Assembly: GCA_006384855.1 (NCBI GenBank) | Contig: VCJN01001923.1 | Span: forward strand, 38,706-102,705 | Length of the DNA stretch: 64,000 nucleotides | Source: Tetraselmis striata | Lineage: Eukaryota > Chlorophyta > Chlorodendrophyceae > Chlorodendrales > Chlorodendraceae | Direction: 5' to 3' | Shown here: positions 6,384 to 51,400 of the stretch, piece by piece | Layout: every line of letters begins with the position of its first letter | Position numbering within the stretch: position 1 is the first letter of the stretch | Position numbers and translations under genes: made by a program | The notes under the pieces: model-generated | Database searches by the model: none | What the model was told of the DNA's origin: nothing | The model's input: only the letters and a program-made list of their open reading frames with translations

Positions 6384-7460
6384 AACGACGCACTTACGTA
6401 ATTGACGAGCCCGAAGCTGTCGCTCCCTGGGCTGCTTCACTGCGATCTCGACTGCATGATGCTTTCGGCTCAGACGAGTTAGGGCAGCGGACGCTCAACC
6501 TGCTCTCCAGCTCTCTCACCGCTCAGACACTCAAGAGTTACGCCGGCAGACTGTCTCAGTTCGCGGGGTTCTGCCACGATTCCGAGAACATCAGCCCGCG
6601 GGAGGCGACCACTGCTATTGTTGTCCGGTACGTTGCCTGGATTGGTGAGCGAGGGCACATTGGAGCTAAGTCGTTGCAGCCCTACATGTCTTCAATCAAC
6701 ACGTTCTTCGAGCTGCACAACCTCGACCCAGTCGCCAAGGACAGCCTTCACCTTACTTCAGCTATGCGTGGACTGATGCTGCGGCAGCCCCGTCTGGAAG
6801 CCACCCCTTTGCGAGTCCCTCTGTATGCTGATGTAGCTTACACCTTCGTCGAGCGAGAGGGCCGAGTTAGTTGTGTCTGCTCCCACCACGAAGTACCAGT
6901 ACGATGTGTGAGCCCTCGTGGCCTCGGTTGTCAACTTCATGTTCTTTGCCAGGGGACTTACTGGCGTGTCTTGCCGAGTGCGGGATGTGCATGTCGACGA
7001 TTACAACATCACCTTGCAGGTGTACCGCGAGAAAGGTCGCGCTGGCCGACGGGGTCCCGACGACCTGCGCGTGCGTGCTTCTCCTACCGGTGTCAAAACA
7101 CCCCCGATCGAGTTGCACGTTGCTTGGCTGAGACAAACTTCTGGGCAGTCACCCCAAGCGAGCAGTCAAAAGCTTGGACCGCCGCTACAATGTCGGACTG
7201 GCAGTCTACATCCGTTCGTCTTGTCGGTGCTGCCCCTCCCGCCAGCACTTCCTGGACCTCACACAGCCTTCGCAAGGGAGCAGCGTCTACTACCGCTAAC
7301 GCCATCGGAGCTCCATTGTCCCACATTCGCTACCAAGGCGGCTGGGCCACTAACTCCGACATCGTTCTGGACTACATCGACCCCAACGTTCTTCACTTGA
7401 ATGCATGGTTCTTCTTTGGCCACATCGTGCCCCTCCATCCGCCACTTCCAAGTCCAACAT
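6384..7460 (+). pseudogene. Tyrosine recombinase of a DIRS/Crypton-like element (frameshifted)
   Basis: The N-terminal SAM-like part reads TAQTLKSYAGRLSQFAGFC and continues to about 6900. The reading then shifts frame (FMFFARGLTGVSCRVRDVHV) and shifts back near 7190. The C-terminal part carries HSLRKGAA, a GGW box and VLDYIDP. Together these supply the R, H-x-x-R, W and tyrosine nucleophile expected for a phage-integrase-type recombinase. Such enzymes insert circular element DNA by site-specific recombination. Two compensating frameshifts (near 6900 and 7150) break the ORF. It follows the gag-like relic, and the two probably belong to one internally deleted element. It is only distantly similar to the recombinase at 46.4 kb, so it belongs to another family. 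Confidence 0.8.
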
Positions 7461-7937
7461 GACTCCGCAGCGGTGGCCTTCCCGGTGTCTCCTTCATGAC
7501 ATGGCGCTACCCCTTCTCCGTCAATCCACCGCTCTCTCCGTTCGCTCATGACTGGCAAACCAAACTTCTCACTTTCCAGCCGGCCCTAAACACCGGGCGA
7601 AGTACTGCGTATGTACTAAAATCCCAGCGAGCCGGCGCGGCTACTAGTACTGGTAGCGTGATCATACCATCCAGTGAAACGGCGGACCGTCCGACGACCG
7701 GACAACCCACCTGTTGGCATGCGCCCACAGTGGCGTGAAGAGCAGGCCCTCCATGAGGACACCACCACAGCCAGCATGGATACATACAGATATCAGGAGC
7801 AACATAACGCCGGGGCCGGCACCTTTCTGGCCGCGCTACGAGGCGGCAGAGTGCATTAGACAGCGATCCGCACGGTCGTAACTGCAAAAAAAATCGCAGG
7901 CACCCAACTCCCACCAGCAACCCGCCGCCACATACGC
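7461..7937. other. Spacer between recombinase relic and ORF1-like relic
   Basis: No domain or repeat boundary could be identified. It may contain the right end of the 4.9-7.5 kb element. Confidence 0.4.
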
Positions 7938-35840: not shown

Positions 35841-36265
35841 TCGCGCGGGAGCCTAGAGTTGTCGTTCATGGGGCGTTTGCCGAGATGCATGATGATGTGT
35901 GGCAATGGGGGCGGATCGGTTGATGCCATCGTCTAACCCGATGCGGCATGTGTTGCTTGCCACAGACTCCATAACTTCATCAAAGTGCATGGCGTCTCTG
36001 TTGGCGTAAATATATCTGCCGGGGGCAGTGGCTTGATACGGCCCACAGCGGGCGGCCACACGGCTCTTGAGCTGGATAGGTTGTCTCCTGGTGAATCGGT
36101 TGGTTGGGCATCGTAGCCGCATCGCACTGACCGATCTGCCGACCCGACCGGTCCCGGGCCAATTGGTTATCCTATTTGAGGCACTCCTCTGGACCTCCCC
36201 TGACGCCCTGGTAGTCATCATGACATTTATGTCTATAGTGTTGAGCCCCTACTTCCTGTAGTATG
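35841..36265. other. Spacer next to the Ginger element
   Basis: No gene or repeat recognised. Confidence 0.4.
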
Positions 36266-36284
36266 TATATGTTAAGACCCATGT

Positions 36285-36700
36285 ACGGAAATGCCATGTG
36301 TATACACAGGTCATGTGTATACATTGACCTGTGTGCACACATGTCATTATCTTGCCTCTTTATACACATGTCGATACCGTAATGACCTGAGTGTACACGG
36401 GTCATCTTCACTTTGACCCGTGTACGCACAGGTCACTTTTATGACCCATGTACAAACATGTCAAATTGATCATCATGACCCGTGTACACACTGGTCATTA
36501 CGGTACCGACCTGTGTATACACGGGTCACCAATGATGACTTGTGTATACACAGGTCAGATTATTTTTTGACCCATGTAGCGCTACACACAGGTCATTTTT
36601 TTGACCTATGTACAAACACCTATATTTTCGTGTACATAGGACATAACGAATTCGACCTGTGTGCGAACATGTCTTTCTGGATGTCCCATGTACCGCTTAC
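36285..36700. repeat. Left subterminal array of ~12 palindromic units
   Basis: About a dozen units of the form GACC(T/C)(G/A)TGTRTACACAGGTC, each a near-perfect palindrome with a TGTGTACACA core, are spaced by 10-25 bp. Many are diverged in one arm. They match the right array 39120-39735 and probably bind the transposase. Confidence 0.9.
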
Positions 36701-36799
36701 TGGGACCGAAACTACAAGGATTCAAAACGCCCGACGTTGCGGCTCTTGTGCGCCCGGCGGTGCGAAGCTACTCTACGGGCGTGCGCATTTCAAACCGGG

Positions 36800-39019
36800 C
36801 CGCCAACATCTACCCAGATGCATACAAGCTCTTCCGCCCCGCCCGCCCCAAGTGCCAACAAGGCAGAGGCCGAACTGACCCATACCCTAGGTATGGCAGA
36901 CCTGGCCAAAGCTGCGGCGTTTGCGTCAGAAAGCGCCCACCCCCGGAATGATGCCGCGGAAGCCGCCGCCGCCGCTGACGCCACCACGAGGCAGCCGGCC
37001 ACGCGGCGCTGGAGCGCTCCGCCGCCATGGCACTCCACCGCATAGCGTTCAACGATAAACTGGCCATGTGGATGGAATTTGTGGGCAGACACAACATCAC
37101 GCTGCTTACATAGGAGGCTTGGCGAACTGCCAAGCGCGATGTCGTGGCATGGCGACTGCCGAAAGGGTAGGTTCTCATGCGTGATCTGCCCCCCGCCCCC
37201 TTGCGCGCAGAGCTTCAGATATGCGTGATCGTGAGCATAGCATGACGCCGAACGCGCCTGTTCGAACGCGCATGTTTTGCATCATAGGTCCACCTCTGAT
37301 CTTGCAGTCTGACAACGGGAGGGAGTTTCTCAACCTTGTTGCACGCAGTGGCTCTAACAATGGTAACATGGCTGTAGCAGTGGCTCAGTCTAACAATGTT
37401 TCGCCCGATAACACTGGTTGTAACAATGTTATTGACTTTGCGCGCATGCCCCTGATCGTCTTGTTGGTACATGTGTTACTGATGCTCAAGGCCAAGCCGC
37501 AGTAGGTGCCGGTGCCGCACGAGGTGAGATGACAAAAGCAGACCTCCCTGAGGTATATACCCACCCCCTCCCCCCCGGCTCTATTCCCTACTGAGCAAGT
37601 GAGCATACACTGACTGCGGCTTTTATGTGGCCTTGCAGATGGCGACTTCACTGAAGCAGTTGTGGCCCGGGTGCACCATGGTAACAGGGCGCCTTAGGCA
37701 CAGCCCAAGCAATGGCGGCAGTGAGCGTTTCAACCGCACCATTGAAGAGAAGGTGCGCCTCTTCTGTTGTGAGCACAACACACCGAACTAGCCGGTGGCG
37801 GCTCACCTGGTAGCATGGCAGTACAACATTAGCTTTCGCTCAGCCATCTAGCATGGCGACATGCGCACCCCATTCATGATCGTATATGCCGCATATAATA
37901 CTTCGAATGCCAACCCCTGATATGCTGTCTGATGCGCGGATGCCGTATGTTGCAGTCTTTGGTCAGGTGCCGCGTGTTGGCCTGCAATCCCCGCGCCTCA
38001 GCCATGACCTGGCCAACTCGCTGACCACGGAGGCGGACCTCAATGCTGCACTAGGCTTGCCGCATGACAAGGCCATCGATGATGACAGCCCCGCTGCATT
38101 TGAGCCGAGGGTACAGGATGCAGCAGCCCCGCCCACTGATGGCCTTTCGGCAAAGCTTGCCAGCCCCGCTGCATTTGAGCCGAGGGCAGAGGATGCAGCA
38201 GCCCCGCCCACTGATGGCTAAGCAGGTGCGACATGCGCACCGCATTCAGGAATAGAAATGCCGCATGTATTGTTTGGAATGCGTTCTACTGATATACTGC
38301 TTTATGCGCAGGTGCCGCAGGTCAACCTCATGCGCATGGGCGGGTGGCACCGCGGGAGTGCAGCCCTGGCCCTGGCCACAAGGAAGATTGGAACCCATTG
38401 ACATCCATTGTTGCGTGCAAAGCTTATGTGGCTGATGGAGTGTGTGTGATAGGCCAGAGGATACCTACGGAAGGGCCTCTGAAGGGGCACCAATGCAAGG
38501 GATGCGGGATGTTCTACCACAACATCTGCACAGGTAATACAGGTGCCATTTCCCCATGTCCGTGCAAATATATACTGTGAATGCATACTGACACAATTCA
38601 TGTGCGCGCAGGAGGGACAGAGGAGGGCTACTGCAGCGAGCAATGCCCCTCTATAGGGCTCGGCTGGCAAGGGGACATCTTCGCCCCAGCTCTGCAAGAC
38701 CCGGCGGAGCAGCCGCATGATAACAATGGCACCGCAGAAGGCCAACATCATGTGACACCTGCTCTACGCAAACGCCCTCTCGACCCTGTAGGCTCTCCTG
38801 AAGATGCAGCTGAATGCTTTAGGCGGAGTGTTAGATCGGTGTCCCTCCATGGCGGGCAAGCAAGGTATGATGAAGTGCAGTTGCAAGGGGGCATGCAAAA
38901 CCAACGCTTGCGCCTGCCGAAAAGCTGACCGTAAGTGCAACTCTAGATGCCACAACGGCAACGCCACTTGCGTGAATTTGTATGACGCAGATGCGTCCAC
39001 CAGTGGGGGAAATGTGTAG
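36800..39019 (+). pseudogene. Ginger-type integrase/transposase with zinc finger and CXC-type C-terminus
   Basis: The N-terminal block (37046-37170) reads AFNDKLAMWMEFVGRHN. The integrase core has GPPLILQSDNGREFLNLV with the second catalytic D at 37311-37313. After an intron-like gap comes GRLRHSPSNGGSERFNRTIE with the catalytic E at 37723-37725. PYVAVFGQVPRVGLQSPRL (near 37945-38000) is the conserved motif after the core. A C2HC/PHD-like zinc finger follows (GHQCKGCGMFYHNICTG and EEGYCSEQC, 38344-38650). Last is a CXC-type cysteine cluster (38876-38974: CSCKGACKTNACACRKADRK then CNSRCHNGNATC). The order resembles KRBA2/SCAND3-type integrase proteins related to Ginger transposases. The first catalytic D was not found, and in-frame stops (for example after HNTPN and FRSAI) show decay. 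Confidence 0.8.
38065..38220 (+). repeat. Two tandem ~70-bp coding repeats in the Ginger ORF
   Basis: The peptide SPAAFEPRVQDAAAPPTDGL recurs as SPAAFEPRAEDAAAPPTDG with nearly identical DNA. It lies between the integrase core and the zinc finger, probably a flexible linker expanded by duplication. Confidence 0.85.
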
Positions 39020-39119
39020 AAAGTGACAGAATGTAGTGGAAAACCCGGTGAAAACCGGTTTAATTTGATATATTTGAAAATCAACTGCAATTTGCGCAAT
39101 GTTCGCACTTGGGCCATAC

Positions 39120-39735
39120 CGGGTGATAGCCATGTGTACACACAGGTCAGTTTGCATGGCCCAAGTAGCAAATCTGGTCTGAAAGTGGCGTGTTCGCACT
39201 TTGGGCATTCCCCATGTTTGATTTGTGTATACATGGGTCACCAATGTAAAAACAGACCTAAAACCCGACACCTTGCTTGCACATGGAGCATCTGTGAAAT
39301 AAATGGCCTGGGTGAAAGCATGTACATGGGTCATATGTCATGTGACCTGTGTACAAACAAGGCAGCGATGTTCGCACTACTTCGGTCATTTTCTATGACC
39401 TGTGTATGTGTACACGGGGCGATTTCAAGTGACATGTGTGTACACAGGTCATGGTCAAAATGACCTATGTGTACACATGTCAATGTAAGAGACATGTGTG
39501 TACACATGGCATATAAGGTAATGTCCTTAGTACACACAGGGCACCTAAATGCCATGTGTACATTCCCTAATTTTGGTACATGCCCTAATTTTGACCATGA
39601 TCTGTGTACACAGGTCAATGCAAGTGACCTGTGTGCACCGGGAATATAAGGTAATGCCCTGTGTACACACAGGGCACCTAAATGCCCTGTGTATACACAG
39701 CTCATTTTGACCATGCGCTGTGTACACACAGGGCA
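39120..39735. repeat. Right subterminal array of palindromic units
   Basis: About a dozen GACCTGTGTACACAGGTC-like units. Toward the right end they shift to a (T)GCCCTGTGTACACACAGGGC variant, also palindromic, so the outer and inner units differ by the flanking triplet. Confidence 0.9.
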
Positions 39736-39761
39736 TTTTCGTACATGGGTCTTAACATATA

Positions 39762-41026
39762 CACCCCTCCACATAAGTTTGGGGTCCTTTTTTGGCTGAA
39801 TATGAAATGAAAAATACTAGGGTATCTAAACGTAGGGCTTTAGGGCTGGAACCCGGGAATGTTTTAGGTTGTTATAAAACCTTTTGCTTGATAGGATCTA
39901 AATTATAACCTATTACCCTAAGAATAGGGTATTGCGATCTGGCGCGGGGCTCAAAGGGCATGACGCAGTCATGCACAACAATACATGTTATTGGCACATA
40001 TATGATGGCCCACATGCATAGAGCATTGTATGGTGCAATGCCCGTAGATGTGTGAGGAAACATAGTAGCTCGCGGGTTGGGTGGGTTTGGGTGGGCATAG
40101 TCACGTAAGGCAGAGTGGGCACACGTGCGTGTGACGATGCTAGGACCAGTGCAGTTCTGCCCACTGCAAGCGACACCCCCTTGACTTCAAACGCTTATAG
40201 CGGCTCAGGGAGTGCTCCAAAAATTCTAAAAAAATGCGCAAAAAAATCCTTGCGTCAAACGCGGGAGGTGAATTTCGAGTTTTGAGCACCTAATTTGCAC
40301 GTTTGGACCACTTTCTAGCGATGAACATAAAATACATCAATCACGGCATCCTTTCGCAACACTCAACCTCAACATGGGGGCGTAGCTTTGCGCTATGTGT
40401 GTCCCCTTAATCCATACGCATTTGTGTGACAGTGTTATGAATGTAGATGCACACGGGCGGCGCAAACTTGCCACATGCTCCCTCTCTAGCCATGTCCTCG
40501 ATGGCCAACAACATTGTGCTGTTTTCAACATATTATTTTTGCTGATATTCAAGCATTTAATAGCGCGCTGCTATGTGGCATTCTACTTGTGATTCGGCGC
40601 AATTGCCATGCGTGCACGTGACCCCCATTGATGCGCTCTCGCCTAAGCCAAGGAGGGCTCAATAAGCCTTTCATGCGTGAGTAGGCAACAATAACAGCAC
40701 CATTTTTGGCCGAACATCACGCCATGTAGTGGTGAAACTGTAATTTAGGGCTTGTGCAATACCCTTAGTGACCTAATCTTGGTGCCCCACACATGTTGTA
40801 GGTGAACCTTACACTAAAGATGGCAGCATGCCAGTACGGCGTGGATTTGCGCGTTGGATGTATGCGTACGAAGGGATGGCGCAACTTGTTATTTTCCAGT
40901 GCAAGTTTTACACGCATTGATTTGCCATTTCTCGAGGGGCGCAGAACGACGCATGCCCTGTCGCACGGTTAGGCCTAGAGCGCGCCCCCATTTTTTCCCA
41001 AGTCGACCTCGCCCTTAGTCACTTGC
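39762..41026. other. Spacer without recognisable gene
   Basis: Somewhat AT-richer than its surroundings. Only short frames, no repeat copy of the families above. Confidence 0.45.
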
Positions 41027-42705: not shown

Positions 42706-42906
42706 AAAACTGTAGGGTTTCCTTGAGAGGAACGACCTAGGAAACCCTGGTTTTCGCAGCGCCGTCAGGGTTAAGTGACGACCCTGCCGGCCCGGTACGC
42801 CAGTACCGGCCGGCGCCGGTCCGACGGCGCCCTTTAACCGAGTATAAAGGGCGGCCGCGGACCGGGGGCGCCTTCAGTTGTTGGAAGGCACCCGACTATA
42901 TTGTCT
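42706..42906 (+). repeat. Split direct repeat A1
   Basis: 201 bp, starting AAAACTGTAGGGTTTCC and ending ACTATATTGTCT. The same length is found at A2. It includes GAGTATAAAGG (a TATA-like box), so it may carry the promoter. Confidence 0.95.
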
Positions 42907-42996
42907 TCTACGACTGGTACATTTTCGTTTCGTCTTCGACTACAAAAATTCAAATTTCTTCTGCGTTCTGTAGTGCGTTTGATCCCGGCACTCACC

Positions 42997-44046
42997 ATGG
43001 CTCGCTCCGCGAGTCCGTCTTGGGCGTGGCTCCTTGTCTCGCTTGTGGTGCTGTCACCTTGCGTTCTCGTCTCTGTTTTAGCAGTGGACAAGTTTGAACT
43101 CGTCTGGAACGAGTTACTGGACTCTCGCAGAGCTCTTCGTGAGCAACTCGTTACCCGCGAAAATCATCTCACTGTCCTAGGTGGTGATACTCCACCTGTA
43201 GACGGGGTAGCTGAATCTCCCCCTCTCGTCGCCGCTAGACAGGCAGTTGCTGATACGTCTGCTGCTCTACTCCGTATTGAGCGTGAGGTCTCTGAGCTTA
43301 GGCAGGCAGTCGCGTCGTCGAGCGGTCCGTCTACTTCGGCTTCAGCTTCGAAACGCGTCGCGGAGGGGGACGCCGACTACGACCGCAAGGGCAAGAGACC
43401 TGCTCAACCTCCGGCGGTGGAAGCTCCATCTCGCCTCATCAACGCACCTGAGGATGGATGGCTAGACAAAGATGGTAAGGTTCACCGCCGCCATACCGCT
43501 GACGCTCGTAACCTTCAGCGCGACCTAGACGACGTCTTCCAGATCTATGACTTTTTGGCACCGGCGGAGGAGCCTCTGCGTGACTTAGTGGAGGACGGCA
43601 CCGATCTTCCTGCTTCTTCGCCAGCTTCGTCTGCGGAGCTGTTCAAGTCGATTACCGCAGCTCTAGCTTTGTGCACTACTGTGGCTCTTCGGATTAACAA
43701 GCGTGGCAAGAAGCTGCATGTAGAACACGAGTACGGCGCGGAAGTCGCCAAGGAGTTCGATGCTGTGGACCCTCTCGGCGAGAAGGGCTCAGCCGACAAC
43801 AAGGAGCTGAAGAAGGCGCTGGAGAAGGTCAAGGCCAAGAAACCTTCTTCTTCCTCTTCGCGCGCCAAGCCTTCTTCCTCTTCTCGCAAGCCAGAGTCGT
43901 TTCGCCGCGGGAGCGACAACCGGAGGGAGAGCGGCCGCCGCGAGGAGAAGCCTCCTTCTGGTCGATCTTCTGCTGCAGACATCACCTGCTATCGCTGCCA
44001 GAGGAAAGGACACTTCAGTAGGGACTGCCCGAGTGCTCGTCGCTGA
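42997..44046 (+). CDS. gag: Gag-like protein with CCHC zinc knuckle (PAT-like element)
   Basis: Binds and packages element RNA. ATG at 42997 (MARSASPSWAWLLV) is preferred because it follows a CACC context and the A1 leader. The N-terminus is hydrophobic and membrane-like. A coiled-coil segment follows (LLRIEREVSELRQAVASS), then a low-complexity linker, a central globular part (RRHTADARNLQRDLDDVFQI), a lysine/serine-rich stretch, and a C-terminal knuckle CYRCQRKGHFSRDC at 43987-44028. The stop is TGA at 44044-44046. The ORF is intact at 349 codons. A hydrophobic N-terminus is unusual for a DIRS gag and could be chance composition. Confidence 0.85.
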   Translation: MARSASPSWAWLLVSLVVLSPCVLVSVLAVDKFELVWNELLDSRRALREQLVTRENHLTVLGGDTPPVDGVAESPPLVAARQAVADTSAALLRIEREVSELRQAVASSSGPSTSASASKRVAEGDADYDRKGKRPAQPPAVEAPSRLINAPEDGWLDKDGKVHRRHTADARNLQRDLDDVFQIYDFLAPAEEPLRDLVEDGTDLPASSPASSAELFKSITAALALCTTVALRINKRGKKLHVEHEYGAEVAKEFDAVDPLGEKGSADNKELKKALEKVKAKKPSSSSSRAKPSSSSRKPESFRRGSDNRRESGRREEKPPSGRSSAADITCYRCQRKGHFSRDCPSARR

Positions 44047-44501
44047 AGCTGCGGAGTCTGCAATCCTCCTGGCCTGGCCAGTGATGGTGTTCGTGTAGCT
44101 GCAGTTAGGCCTCCGGGCAGCTGTTAGCCCTCCTCCGGGAGCTGAGCTCAGGCTCGTGTTATCGCAGCTCTGATCTCCTCCGGGAGAGTCACCTGTTAGA
44201 TGGTGTATCCTCGAGAGATACCTCGTATGTAATGTACATGATGTTCCCTGCGACTCTTTGCTGCCCCTGGCAGTTGTCCCCCCAACTTTCACTAAGTTGG
44301 CTGATGATGCATTCGTGTGAAGATCGGCACACCCTGTGTGACGATTCATATCTCTCGTTGTGTCGGAGCGATATTTATTTTGAAAATTCTGTTATTTTCA
44401 GTTTCAGACGATTGTGACTTCAAACTCACTGTTTGATTCATGCAGCAGTCATCCAAGCTGCTTGCTGACCACTATGATGCTGTCTGTGGCGTTGGCATTT
44501 T

Positions 44502-46568
44502 GTGACAGTTTTATCGTCGGCTAATTTTGAGCTCCCTCATGAGCCAGCTCTGGACGTCAATTCCCCTGTGGAATCAGCTGGTGTTATCCGCGATGGCTGG
44601 CAATTTTGGGACAGCATTACTGATTCAGTCAGAGACAGTCAGGTCAGAGACTGGGTCAGGCATGGCTACCGTATGAACTGGGCTGATGGTCCGGCACCAC
44701 CCAGCCACCTGCCAAATCACCCTTCCGCGCTGCAGCACCCCGATTTCATTGATGGGCAGATCGCTCCGTTATTGCCGCTGGGCCATATCAGAGAGGAACC
44801 TGTGCGCCATGTGGTGCTGAATCCTTTGGGTGTGGTCCCCAAACCCCATGGTGGACTCAGGCTGATCTGCGATCAGCGGCATGTCAACAAACACTTGGTT
44901 TACACTCCCTTCAGGATGGAGTCGTTATCTAAGCTGTCAGACCTGGTGAATCCCGGCGACATGCTGACCAGCATGGACCTGACCCAGGGCTACTACCATG
45001 TCCGCCTCCATGACTCAGCTGCACCTTACAGCGGGTTTGAATGGAGAGGAAGATTCTACACCTGGCGAGTTCTATGCTTCGGGCTGTCTGATGCCCCTCG
45101 CTGCTTTTCTAAAGTTATGGGAGTCCTGGTGCGACACTGGCGCAGTAAGGGCATCAGGATGCTCTGCTATCTGGATGACTGGTTGTTCATCTCTGGCTCT
45201 GTCAGAAAGGCGCATTTAACGACTCAGCGAGTGCTGGCCGATGTTGAGCGCGCCCATGTCAACATCAACTTCAAAAAATCCAGTCTGCGCCCTAGCTCCA
45301 CCATCACCCACCTGGGGTTTGACCTGGACACCGTGGCCGGCACCTTCTCTGTGCCTCAGAAGCGATGGGATGCCCTTCAGCTTGACATCCAGTCCCTACT
45401 GCATGGCCACCGCAAGCGCCACAAAGTCAAGTTCTTGGCCAGCTGTACTGGGAAATTGATTTCCATGGGGCTAGCATTGGGCCCAGTTTCTCGCCTCTTT
45501 TCTAGAGGTCTGTATGCCAACATTGCGCAAGCAGAACAGTGGGGTCACCACGTTGCCCTCTCTGAGGAATCCCGTGAAGAGCTACGGTTCTGGGCCCGAG
45601 TGTCTAGGCAGCAGTTTACTGGGCGCATCGTACCTGACCTGGACAGCAAACTGTCCGTTTTTATGGAGTGTGATGCTTCAGGCATCGGCTGGGGCGGTTT
45701 AGCCAGACCGACTGATGGCAGCTCAGACCCCGTCGCGAAAGCTCATGGCTTCTTCCTTCCGTGGGAACGCGTCGAGTCCTCGACACACCGTGAGACTCGT
45801 GGTCTTCTCTTCGTTTTGAAGTCCCTGTCACACCTGATCGCAGGCAGACGAGTGCAAGTCCAGGTGGATAATAAAAGTATGCTACCGGTTTGCCGGCACG
45901 GCTCTCGCTCGAGCCTGTCGCTGAACTCTGTCGCTCAACAGGTCTACCTCTTGTGTCTCTCCTTGGGAGCAGCTCTCTCTATTGTGTGGGCGTCCCGGGA
46001 TGAGAATCCGGACTCCGACGAGATTTCCAAGATGCTCGACAAAGATGACTGGCAACTGCTGCCCAAGTTTTTCCGGCGCCTCAGCCTGAAGTGGGGCATC
46101 CACCATGTCGACCGGTTCGCATCCGACCTGAACCATCAAGTACCGAGATTCTACTCGCGGTTCTGGTGCCCAGGATGCGAAGGAGTCGATGCTTTCAGCC
46201 ACTTCTGGGGTGGTAATGTGAATAATTGGATTAACGCTCCGTTTAGCTGCATTGGCCGAGTTGTGCGCAAGCTGAAAGCTGACCGCGCAGTCGCTACAGT
46301 CATAGTACCGCTTTGGCCTAGTCAGTCCTGGTGGACTTTAGTAGCTCCTGACGGTAGGCACCTGGCTGACTGTGTGGTCGATTGGGTCATGCTCGACAGC
46401 GGCGAAGAGCTATTCAGTTCTGGCGAGGGCAGTGGTAACAGCCGCCCGAGCTGCTCCAGGAACTGGCGCGTCCTTGCTCTGCGCATCGACTGCCGGCCCA
46501 GCGCGCGGCGCTCCCCAGCACGCCATCGCTGCCTCCACCCGCAGTGGTGTGACAGTCACGGCCCATGA
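44502..46568 (+). CDS. pol: Reverse transcriptase-RNase H polyprotein (PAT-like element)
   Basis: Copies element RNA into DNA. The frame is open for about 688 codons without a stop. No ATG lies near its start, the first in-frame one being in HGYRMNWADG, so translation may begin at a non-AUG codon, by frameshifting or after splicing. RT motifs: VPKPHGGLRLICDQRHVNKH, LTSMDLTQGYYHVRL with the first aspartate, FGLSDAPRCFSKVM, and YLDD at 45168-45179. RNase H motifs: FMECDASGIGWGG, HRETRGLL and VQVDNKSML. The C-terminal domain (HHVDRFASDLNHQVPRFYSR, then VIVPLWPSQSWWTLV) is the conserved tail of DIRS pol proteins. It overlaps the recombinase frame between 46372 and 46568. Confidence 0.93.
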   Translation: MTVLSSANFELPHEPALDVNSPVESAGVIRDGWQFWDSITDSVRDSQVRDWVRHGYRMNWADGPAPPSHLPNHPSALQHPDFIDGQIAPLLPLGHIREEPVRHVVLNPLGVVPKPHGGLRLICDQRHVNKHLVYTPFRMESLSKLSDLVNPGDMLTSMDLTQGYYHVRLHDSAAPYSGFEWRGRFYTWRVLCFGLSDAPRCFSKVMGVLVRHWRSKGIRMLCYLDDWLFISGSVRKAHLTTQRVLADVERAHVNINFKKSSLRPSSTITHLGFDLDTVAGTFSVPQKRWDALQLDIQSLLHGHRKRHKVKFLASCTGKLISMGLALGPVSRLFSRGLYANIAQAEQWGHHVALSEESREELRFWARVSRQQFTGRIVPDLDSKLSVFMECDASGIGWGGLARPTDGSSDPVAKAHGFFLPWERVESSTHRETRGLLFVLKSLSHLIAGRRVQVQVDNKSMLPVCRHGSRSSLSLNSVAQQVYLLCLSLGAALSIVWASRDENPDSDEISKMLDKDDWQLLPKFFRRLSLKWGIHHVDRFASDLNHQVPRFYSRFWCPGCEGVDAFSHFWGGNVNNWINAPFSCIGRVVRKLKADRAVATVIVPLWPSQSWWTLVAPDGRHLADCVVDWVMLDSGEELFSSGEGSGNSRPSCSRNWRVLALRIDCRPSARRSPARHRCLHPQWCDSHGP

Positions 46569-47724
46569 GTCGGCCATCACCCGTGGGTGTACATCCGCCT
46601 GGCCGTGTAACCCGGTGGCCCCCTCCGATGTGGCCGGCACATCTCTGTTTAATGCTTTGATCTCTTCAGCTCCGCAACAGTGGGCTGCTGGCTCTAATCG
46701 TGGCTATGCCTATATATGGAATCGCTTTGTGATGTTCTGCGAAGCTCGGTCACCTCCCATGTGCCCAATGCCAGCAGCCCCGATTGTGGTGGCTATGTTT
46801 TTACAAGCTCGGTTGGACGCCCGTTCTACCAACAGCTATTCAGTGATCAGGTCTGCGTCTGCGGCTATATCGCAGATGCATCGGCTGAATATGCATCCCA
46901 GTCCTACCTTATCCCCGTGTTGCACCTCTGTCCGGGCAGCAGCCAAGCGCACCCTGGGGCTCGCCGTGAAGAACGCCAAGGAGCCCTTCGCATGGTCTGA
47001 CATCGCGAAGCTGGTCCGCCTTCGCTGCAAGGACGACTCAGGTATTTGTTCCTGGATAGTGGCATTTGCCGCAGCCGTCAGTTTTGCCGGCTTCTGCCGC
47101 TACAGCGACCTCCGGGTCCTCCGGTGGGAGGACGTCTCCTTCCTCCCGACTTACCTGGAATTCCGCTTCGTGAAGCGCAAGAACGACCAGCACCGCCTGT
47201 GTGGCAAAGTGCGGGTCGCCAAGATGCACGGCGCCGTGGTGTGCGTATATGGACTCCTGTGACGGTACCAGGCAGTCATGATCCGCTGGGCAACACCCAC
47301 CCTACCAGTGTTCCCGGGGTTCAGCGGCACAGTCCTACGGCACAAGGGCGAGCTGGGGATGGTTCCTTCATCTTCCCCTATTGAGTACCCCACATTCAGA
47401 CGCTACCTCGCACGGTGGTTGGGCCCGCTGCTCACCCCTGTGATGACTGAATCCGCTTTCCTGTCCCGATTCGGCACCCAGTCCAGCCGAAGTGGCGGCG
47501 CTTCCGCCGCCGCTAACGCAGACATCCCGTTCGCAACATGGGGCCAGCATGGTGGCTGGAAGTCAACATCTGCTCAGCTCCGCTATATGGGGCTGGATGA
47601 AGAGCACGTCCTTTCCGTGTCGCGAGCGATTCTGTCACTTGCCGAAGAGGACGAACTGGACGATGGTGACGGTGACGGTTCACCATCCGACACTGACTCG
47701 AATCCCTCCCGGGAAGCAACTTAG
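46372..47724 (+). CDS. Tyrosine recombinase (PAT-like element), split by one TGA
   Basis: It integrates the circular cDNA by strand exchange at a short core, here probably AAAAC. One frame is open from 46372 to 47724 apart from TGA at 47260-47262 (GLL, stop, RYQAV). The N-terminal core-binding part contains WAAGSNRGYAYIWNRFVMFC and MFLQARLDARSTNSYSV. The catalytic part has FAGFCRYSDLRVLRWEDV with the first arginine, TQSSRSGGASAAA with the second arginine (47488-47490), GGWKSTS and LRYMGLDEE with the tyrosine (47584-47586). The histidine usually opening the H-x-x-R box is replaced by Q or S here, so activity is doubtful. The acidic C-terminus is rich in D, E and S. A real start site is not resolved. 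The TGA may be a mutation or readthrough site. Confidence 0.88.
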
Positions 47725-51090: not shown

Positions 51091-51155
51091 AAGGAAATAA
51101 GCATGAGATCGGGGCGGAAGGACCGCCATAGGCAGCTGTATATTAATTTACTGTA

Positions 51156-51400
51156 CATTGCACTGGTGTGAATTACAAAAAAGGGCAGTTCCCCAGAATT
51201 AGAAAATCAACACAGCAAGCCGCCTAAAAGCGGCCCGCATCCCGCATTGCACTGGTGTATATTGCACTGGTGTGAATTACAAAAAGGGCAGTTCCCCAGA
51301 ATTAGAAAATCAACACAGCAAGCCGCCTAAAAGCGGCCCGCATCCCGCATAAGGCGGGATGGATGAGTGATGCGCACACCGTTCAGAGTCCGGGCCACGC
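51156..51400 (+). repeat. R3 hairpin repeat, tandemly duplicated (~105-bp unit)
   Basis: Two adjacent copies each run from GTGTGAATTACAAAAA(A)GG to GGCCCGCATCCCGCAT, joined by a short TATTGCACTGGT bridge. Each contains the AAGCCGCCTAAAAGCGGC hairpin. Confidence 0.85.

Follow-up and report, generated by a model that had tools for sequence, protein, structure and literature searches.

Ginger2-like transposons of an alga carry palindrome arrays at both ends, candidate multi-site platforms for an element-encoded dimeric protein

The stretch of Tetraselmis striata DNA analysed here (the window, 64,000 nucleotides, part of contig C1552 in a 224-Mb assembly of 2903 contigs) contains a whole-length but inactive copy of a Ginger2-like DNA transposon, both ends of which carry an array of 22-bp palindromes. 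Three related families, newly described here, have arrays at both ends in the same genome, built from other half-sites. As the best explanation we propose that the arrays would form a platform with many sites for a dimeric DNA-binding protein that the element encodes, probably its transposase, the window copy itself being presumably dead and non-autonomous; from sequence comparison we put the probability of this reading at roughly 0.66. The features of the window element, which belongs to what we call family A, are as follows.

36266..36269, no strand: left 4-bp target site duplication, TATA
36270..36315, plus strand: left terminal inverted repeat, with tip TGTTAAGACCCATGTAC and the first palindrome inside it
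36292..36674, no strand: left array, 11 units of 22 bp each
Left unit starts: 36292, 36325, 36352, 36383, 36414, 36442, 36476, 36507, 36536, 36602, 36653
36275: additional weak left unit, overlapping the tip
37039..37152, plus strand: remnant of the N-terminal module, with one internal stop
37269..37349, plus strand: exon fragment with the second catalytic motif, LQSDNGREF
37639..37848, plus strand: exon fragment with the catalytic Glu motif SNGGSERFNRTIE and one in-frame stop
38383..38535, plus strand: cysteine-rich module
38855..39016, plus strand: C-terminal CXC-like cysteine motif KCSCKGACKTNACACRKADRKCNSRCH
39128..39735, no strand: right array, 11 units
Right unit starts: 39128, 39219, 39343, 39430, 39461, 39490, 39522, 39596, 39655, 39683, 39714
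39400 and 39625: two right units slightly under the matrix threshold
39497..39693, no strand: local duplication within the right array (39497-39560 and 39630-39693, 88% alike)
39712..39757, minus strand: right terminal inverted repeat
39758..39761, no strand: right 4-bp target site duplication, TATA

The element spans 36270-39757 (3488 bp), and the TG...CA termini and TATA duplication of the original prediction proved exact to the base. The tip TGTTAAGACCCATGTAC begins at 36270 and its reverse complement forms the 3' end, where GTACATGGGTCTTAACA ends at 39757; both are flanked by TATA, itself a palindrome. The ends read TGTTA...TAACA and the inverted repeat is 46 bp long, or 52 nt at 90% complementarity (36264-36315 and 39712-39763) if the duplication and two more bases are counted in. 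Among the 21 family A copies with both tips, 18 had identical 4-bp flanks as read by eye, the exceptions being C1419, C1511 and C2658; in four of the 18 the duplicated letters were not TATA (TATT, CATA, TACG and AATA), and 11 of the 14 with a TATA duplication lay in an RTATAY context, again counted by eye. The predicted assignment to the Ginger type is supported and can be narrowed to Ginger2-like, a label that rests on tips, duplication, target and catalytic motifs, profile support being weak. The CCGG/CCGT target duplications of Ginger1 were not seen, those here being of the TATA type, and ten scanned stretches gave no OTU or Ulp1 match.

The family A unit has the form TGACCTGTGT-NN-ACACAGGTCA. 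A symmetric weight matrix trained on whole family A elements found 22 units in the window element, 11 in each of two arrays that span 991 bp in total, where the earlier estimate was about 12 units per side over some 1 kb; the three weak or sub-threshold units listed above come in addition. The matrix found none in the element's interior and none beyond its ends, in the rest of the window (60.5 kb). Counting near-palindromes without a matrix confirmed the arrays: seven on the left against a shuffle mean of 1.03 (maximum 5) and 11 on the right against 1.38 (maximum 4), or 5 vs 0.36 and 7 vs 0.5, respectively, under other settings. The change from GACC...GGTC to GCCC...GGGC predicted near the end of the right array is only partly borne out: of the last three units, only the one at 39655-39676 has it in both arms. 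At the local duplication in the right array (39497/39630), the other 12 full-length family A copies show an alignment gap.

The predicted integrase gene is represented by exons with catalytic motifs, but only as a fragment. The exon for the first catalytic Asp and a module that we label VGD were not found in the window copy at E 1e-3. For this reason, and because in-frame stops interrupt the N-terminal module and the third exon, the window copy is probably unable to make a working enzyme. Most copies examined were likewise deleted or had stops: among the 13 full-length family A copies, the first-Asp exon was matched in only two, C39 and C1496, and the CXC-like motif, whole or in part, in all 13. 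The most complete order of modules (N-terminal, zinc/first D, second D, E, PHD-like, VGD, CXC-like) was seen in C640, a 4961-bp family B element whose CXC-like module is split over two frames; C501, a 5144-bp family C element, has the same order with the N-terminal module unmatched and a stop in the first-D exon. Motifs that may represent an H2C2 zinc finger and a DDE core were present in C39, C1496, C640 and C501. In Pfam, the matches to Integrase_H2C2 (E 0.14) and rve_3 (E 0.12) fell short of the cut-off, and retroviral integrases matched at E 0.49 with the D and E motifs aligned. The cysteine-rich module at 38383-38535, which we take to be PHD-like, had no Pfam match. For the CXC-like motif, six of the seven members of the set matched Pfam preSET_CXC, all short of the cut-off (best E 0.0088); the PDB matches included no CXC-domain structure and one sub-significant hit to an unrelated protein. 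Between families A and C no other matched module is conserved as well as the CXC-like motif (80% in C501, vs 49-71% for the rest). A coding repeat of 75 bp (like SPAASEPMAEDAAAPPTDGLAAE) occurs at 38083-38218 of the window and in C39 and C1496, its number varying between copies of the transposase gene.

Elsewhere in the window, open reading frames at 42901-47262 look like gag, reverse transcriptase-RNase H and tyrosine recombinase, as in a DIRS-like retroelement, and one at 6674-7462 resembles the C-terminus of a tyrosine recombinase, both as judged from the reading frames. Two nearly identical tandem units of 103 bp lie at 51152-51350.

Family A was followed through the genome with three queries, which gave 136 candidate places (left array), 32 (interior) and 139 (right array), of which the best 40 of 136, all 32 and the best 40 of 139 were scored. 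Arrays occupy both ends of all 21 copies that have both tips, as expected if the arrays belong to the element, although most of these copies were retrieved with the left array as query, so that the sample is biased towards arrays; C2658, retrieved by the interior search alone, is still array-bearing. Twenty of these copies were measured together, 13 full-length (2.9-5.0 kb) and seven short (641-680 bp), with 18 to 30 units each; two of the loci, C678 and C2786, have their flanking letters in common and could be a single duplicated locus. The short copies keep both arrays and little else. The first unit starts at a distance of 22 bp from the tip on the left in 18 of the 20 and on the right in 19. 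C2658, measured apart, has 8 + 12 units (20 in total), both tips and differing flanks. Left out of the main count, besides C2658, were 11 loci in which at most one tip was clear (C746, C862, C1729, C1287, C1531, C149, C2778, C2692, C2008, C2017 and C1268); ten of them hold 8-21 units each, and C2008 has two only, near a family D tip. No unit lies further in than the outer 900 bp in the 17 elements longer than 2 kb (13 A, 1 B and 3 C), which are the only informative ones here since copies under 2 kb were split at their midpoint, nor in C2658.

Short derivatives of the MITE type comprise the seven short A copies, five with identical 4-bp flanks by eye, and two family B copies of 1089 and 1115 bp, which again keep both arrays and little else. 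Miniature copies carry one to a few palindromes: one of 71 bp on C813 (L087 51-121) has both tips, the flanks TATG/TATG and one full unit, and one of 134 bp on C165 (L088 50-183) has both tips and differing flanks. Both may be internal deletions in place and would then be uninformative on the need for arrays.

The units are also tied to transposon tips from the opposite direction. The tip pattern occurs 136 times in the genome and its reversed control not at all. Sites with at most one mismatch number 394; those listed include 50 perfect units, and for 40 of these an exact transposon tip is no more than 1.2 kb away; four of the other ten are on contigs with an array match, and six were unassigned by the script, among them one on C1268, which carries a related element, and one on C1007, with a tip 3.97 kb away. 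Starting from the 69 tips listed, which are on contigs up to C1604, one meets a listed perfect unit no more than 1.2 kb away for at least 31, and likewise for at least nine of 24 tips on 20 contigs without a match among those listed in the array and interior searches; both counts are lower bounds because they take in perfect units only, among the matches listed. A host satellite is ruled out by the 40 of 50 listed perfect units near an exact tip and by the unit-free 60.5 kb of the window.

Further families were reached via DNA weakly similar (72-78%) to the CXC-coding region. In all four families each unit consists of two inverted half-sites with two bases between them, namely TGACCTGTGT in A, TGACTTGTTT in B, TGACACATGT in C and GGTCCATGT in D; the half-sites differ between families at several positions, and each change is present in both arms. 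The family B palindrome TGACTTGTTTGCAAACAAGTCA has 48 sites with up to two mismatches (control 0). Arrays lie at both ends of C2593, C640 and the two 1.1-kb copies, giving three of three elements with both arrays in the main count, with C640 measured separately; the right end of C640 has five units only, none within 50 bp of the tip, and the inner units of family B look closer to those of family A. A protein search with the family B first-D exon gave 86 matches. For family C, with the palindrome TGACACATGTGCACATGTGTCA and 99 tips (control 0), arrays occur at both ends of all four elements L075-L078 and also of C501; the left ends were located with the tip pattern, and the parts upstream differ between two copies. 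Family D, with the unit CCATGT-NN-ACATGG and a first-D exon whose protein is 58-60% identical to that of A, has 9-10 units per end and two loose mid-element matches in both copies examined. On C2017 and C2008 (L010/L034/L054 and L032), tips of family D, TGTTAAGATCCATGTGG, are found near family A sequence, which suggests that D inserted into or beside A there.

Arrays were thus present in four of the five families examined by their tips. The fifth, the distant relative C2671, has a TIR-like tip and no array in the 400 bp at that one tip (0 units vs 0.55 in shuffles), although some loosely similar words can be read there. Two candidate further families were rejected, C489 being C-like and C1384 D-like; on C1704 no tip was located in the fetched sequence, and two scans of viral contigs gave no relatives.

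Since each family has its own half-site, the protein that reads the units is most likely element-encoded, that is, the transposase. The main competitor is a host DNA-binding protein, a regulator or silencer, that binds the units and is either exploited by the element or controls it. In its favour, the arrays are near the gene, where they might serve as promoters or silencers. A single host factor, as the original prediction had entertained, does not explain why four families in one genome have different mirrored half-sites, and short copies without a gene still keep both arrays; we consider a host reader unlikely.

Whether the palindromes matter as paired strands can be judged from the two arms of each unit. 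Independent arms are expected if a dimer reads the halves separately, but not if arm pairing is the conserved property. Covariation between arms was absent in the window element (p 0.87), in pooled A (209 units, p 0.998) and in pooled C (p 0.998), and mismatches affect about 30% of the arm pairs in these two families; the pooled A test had good power, a simulated repair of 10% of mismatched pairs being detected in 40 of 40 runs. Family B showed weak covariation (p 0.017 pooled, 0.012 in C640), as did position 3 alone in pooled A (p 0.015), the latter fitting the GACC/GCCC variation noticed originally. These weak signals, and an RNA fold of the left array far better than that of shuffles (z -12.6), are what speaks for DNA cruciforms, or for hairpin transcripts feeding small-RNA silencing. 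That the arms do not co-vary in A and C points to protein half-sites rather than hairpins, and pairing leaves the constant half-site within each family and its fixed first position unexplained. Strand pairing as the reason for the arrays is on this evidence improbable, and the predicted silencing through hairpins is better seen as a possible side effect.

The arrangement of the units gave a mixed picture. Diversity in units was lower than in spacers in the left array of A (p 0.0005, with one misaligned duplicated copy included) and of C (p 0.0115), equal to it in the right array of C, and higher in the right array of A and, in the short A copies, at both ends. With such mixed signs, purifying selection acting on the units is not supported overall within A and C. 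Intervals between units fell at 27-32 bp in 94 of 138 cases, most commonly at 31 bp (seven elements, not independent of one another), and a spacing scan showed this cluster without a sharp period, so that strict helical phasing was rejected. Near the tips, the families agree in part as to where their units lie: starts at 5, 22, 42 and 69 from the tip occur together in six of the eight C and D ends listed, and starts at 22, 42 and 70 at the left end of the A copies C39, C2068, C2575 and C1419, against 5, 22 and 55 at that of the window element. The left ends of one C and one D element (C_L076 and D_C317) have seven of nine starts in common (p 0.0003, one of eight comparisons; the other seven gave p 0.0098, 0.046, 0.13, 0.14, 0.54, 1.0 and 1.0). 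Passive tandem amplification of an end fragment, a functionless, satellite-like growth carried along by transposition, would fit the local duplications (in the window right array and in the longer left array of C2575) and the several arrays in which unit diversity is not below that of spacers, but has little chance of being right given palindromes that persist in four families with different mirrored sequences, positions partly shared between C and D, and arrays at both ends even of short copies.

For the multi-site platform, the following course of events can be envisaged. Each 22-bp unit would be read as two inverted 10-bp half-sites around two free base pairs by a symmetric dimer. Some ten to fourteen such dimers would line up next to one another, inward from the first full site 22 bp from the tip, at a commonest spacing of 31 bp, or about three helical turns. 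The loaded dimers might form a nucleoprotein complex that marks and pairs the ends, which an integrase-like core would then cut and join with a 4-bp stagger. The original suggestion of a dimeric CXC-domain transposase fares well as to the dimer, which best fits the mirrored half-sites, the free central 2 bp and the independent arms in A and C, and less well as to the CXC domain, given profile matches short of the cut-off and a motif most conserved between A and C although their half-sites differ. Because it is the best conserved module between these families, the CXC-like motif could read the features that units share, while another domain sets the family-specific bases. More tentatively, and with the odds somewhat against it, there may be an ordered recognition code, in which positions near the tip are kept and all half-sites of a family are changed together, symmetrically. 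If so, the families would provide natural orthogonal transposase-site pairs, which would keep them from mobilising each other.

Subterminal repeats that serve for binding have been described in several superfamilies of transposons, and relatives of piggyBac are known to bind palindromes. Four families in one genome with differing mirrored half-sites offer a ready comparison for tracing how changes in a dimeric transposase go along with changes in its sites, and bear also on why some transposons have many sites per end. Besides Herves, the hAT elements Ac, Tag1 and Tol2 have subterminal binding motifs, as do CACTA elements; TDD-4/5, for their part, are Dictyostelium elements. Among the open-licence PMC papers listed by our searches, none was recognisable as describing dense palindrome arrays in Ginger elements. 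In the available part of their description, Ginger2 elements have TGTNR tips, 4-bp duplications, RTATAY targets and terminal inverted repeats of 50-180 bp (Bao et al. 2010, PMC2836005). The algal elements resemble this Ginger2/TDD group in their tips (here TGTTA), 4-bp duplication, TATA-centred target and integrase-like motifs. They differ in an inverted repeat of 46 bp, just under that range, in their host, an alga where that part of the text names animals and a fungus, and in the palindrome arrays and CXC-like motif, the words 'subterminal' and 'CXC' having no occurrence in that paper. The transposase of Herves, as far as the available text describes it, binds a short subterminal motif, CG/AATTCAT, at both ends (PMC3143072); unlike the 22-bp palindromes in a loose 27-32-bp array found here, that motif is not palindromic. 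The nearest mechanistic parallel is piggyBac/piggyBat, for which the accessible portion of the source describes paired C-terminal zinc-binding cysteine-rich domains that bind a subterminal palindrome (PMC11707139). There the palindrome is at the left end, whereas here an array of about ten stands at both ends, and the transposases belong to different superfamilies; the cysteine motifs may be unrelated.
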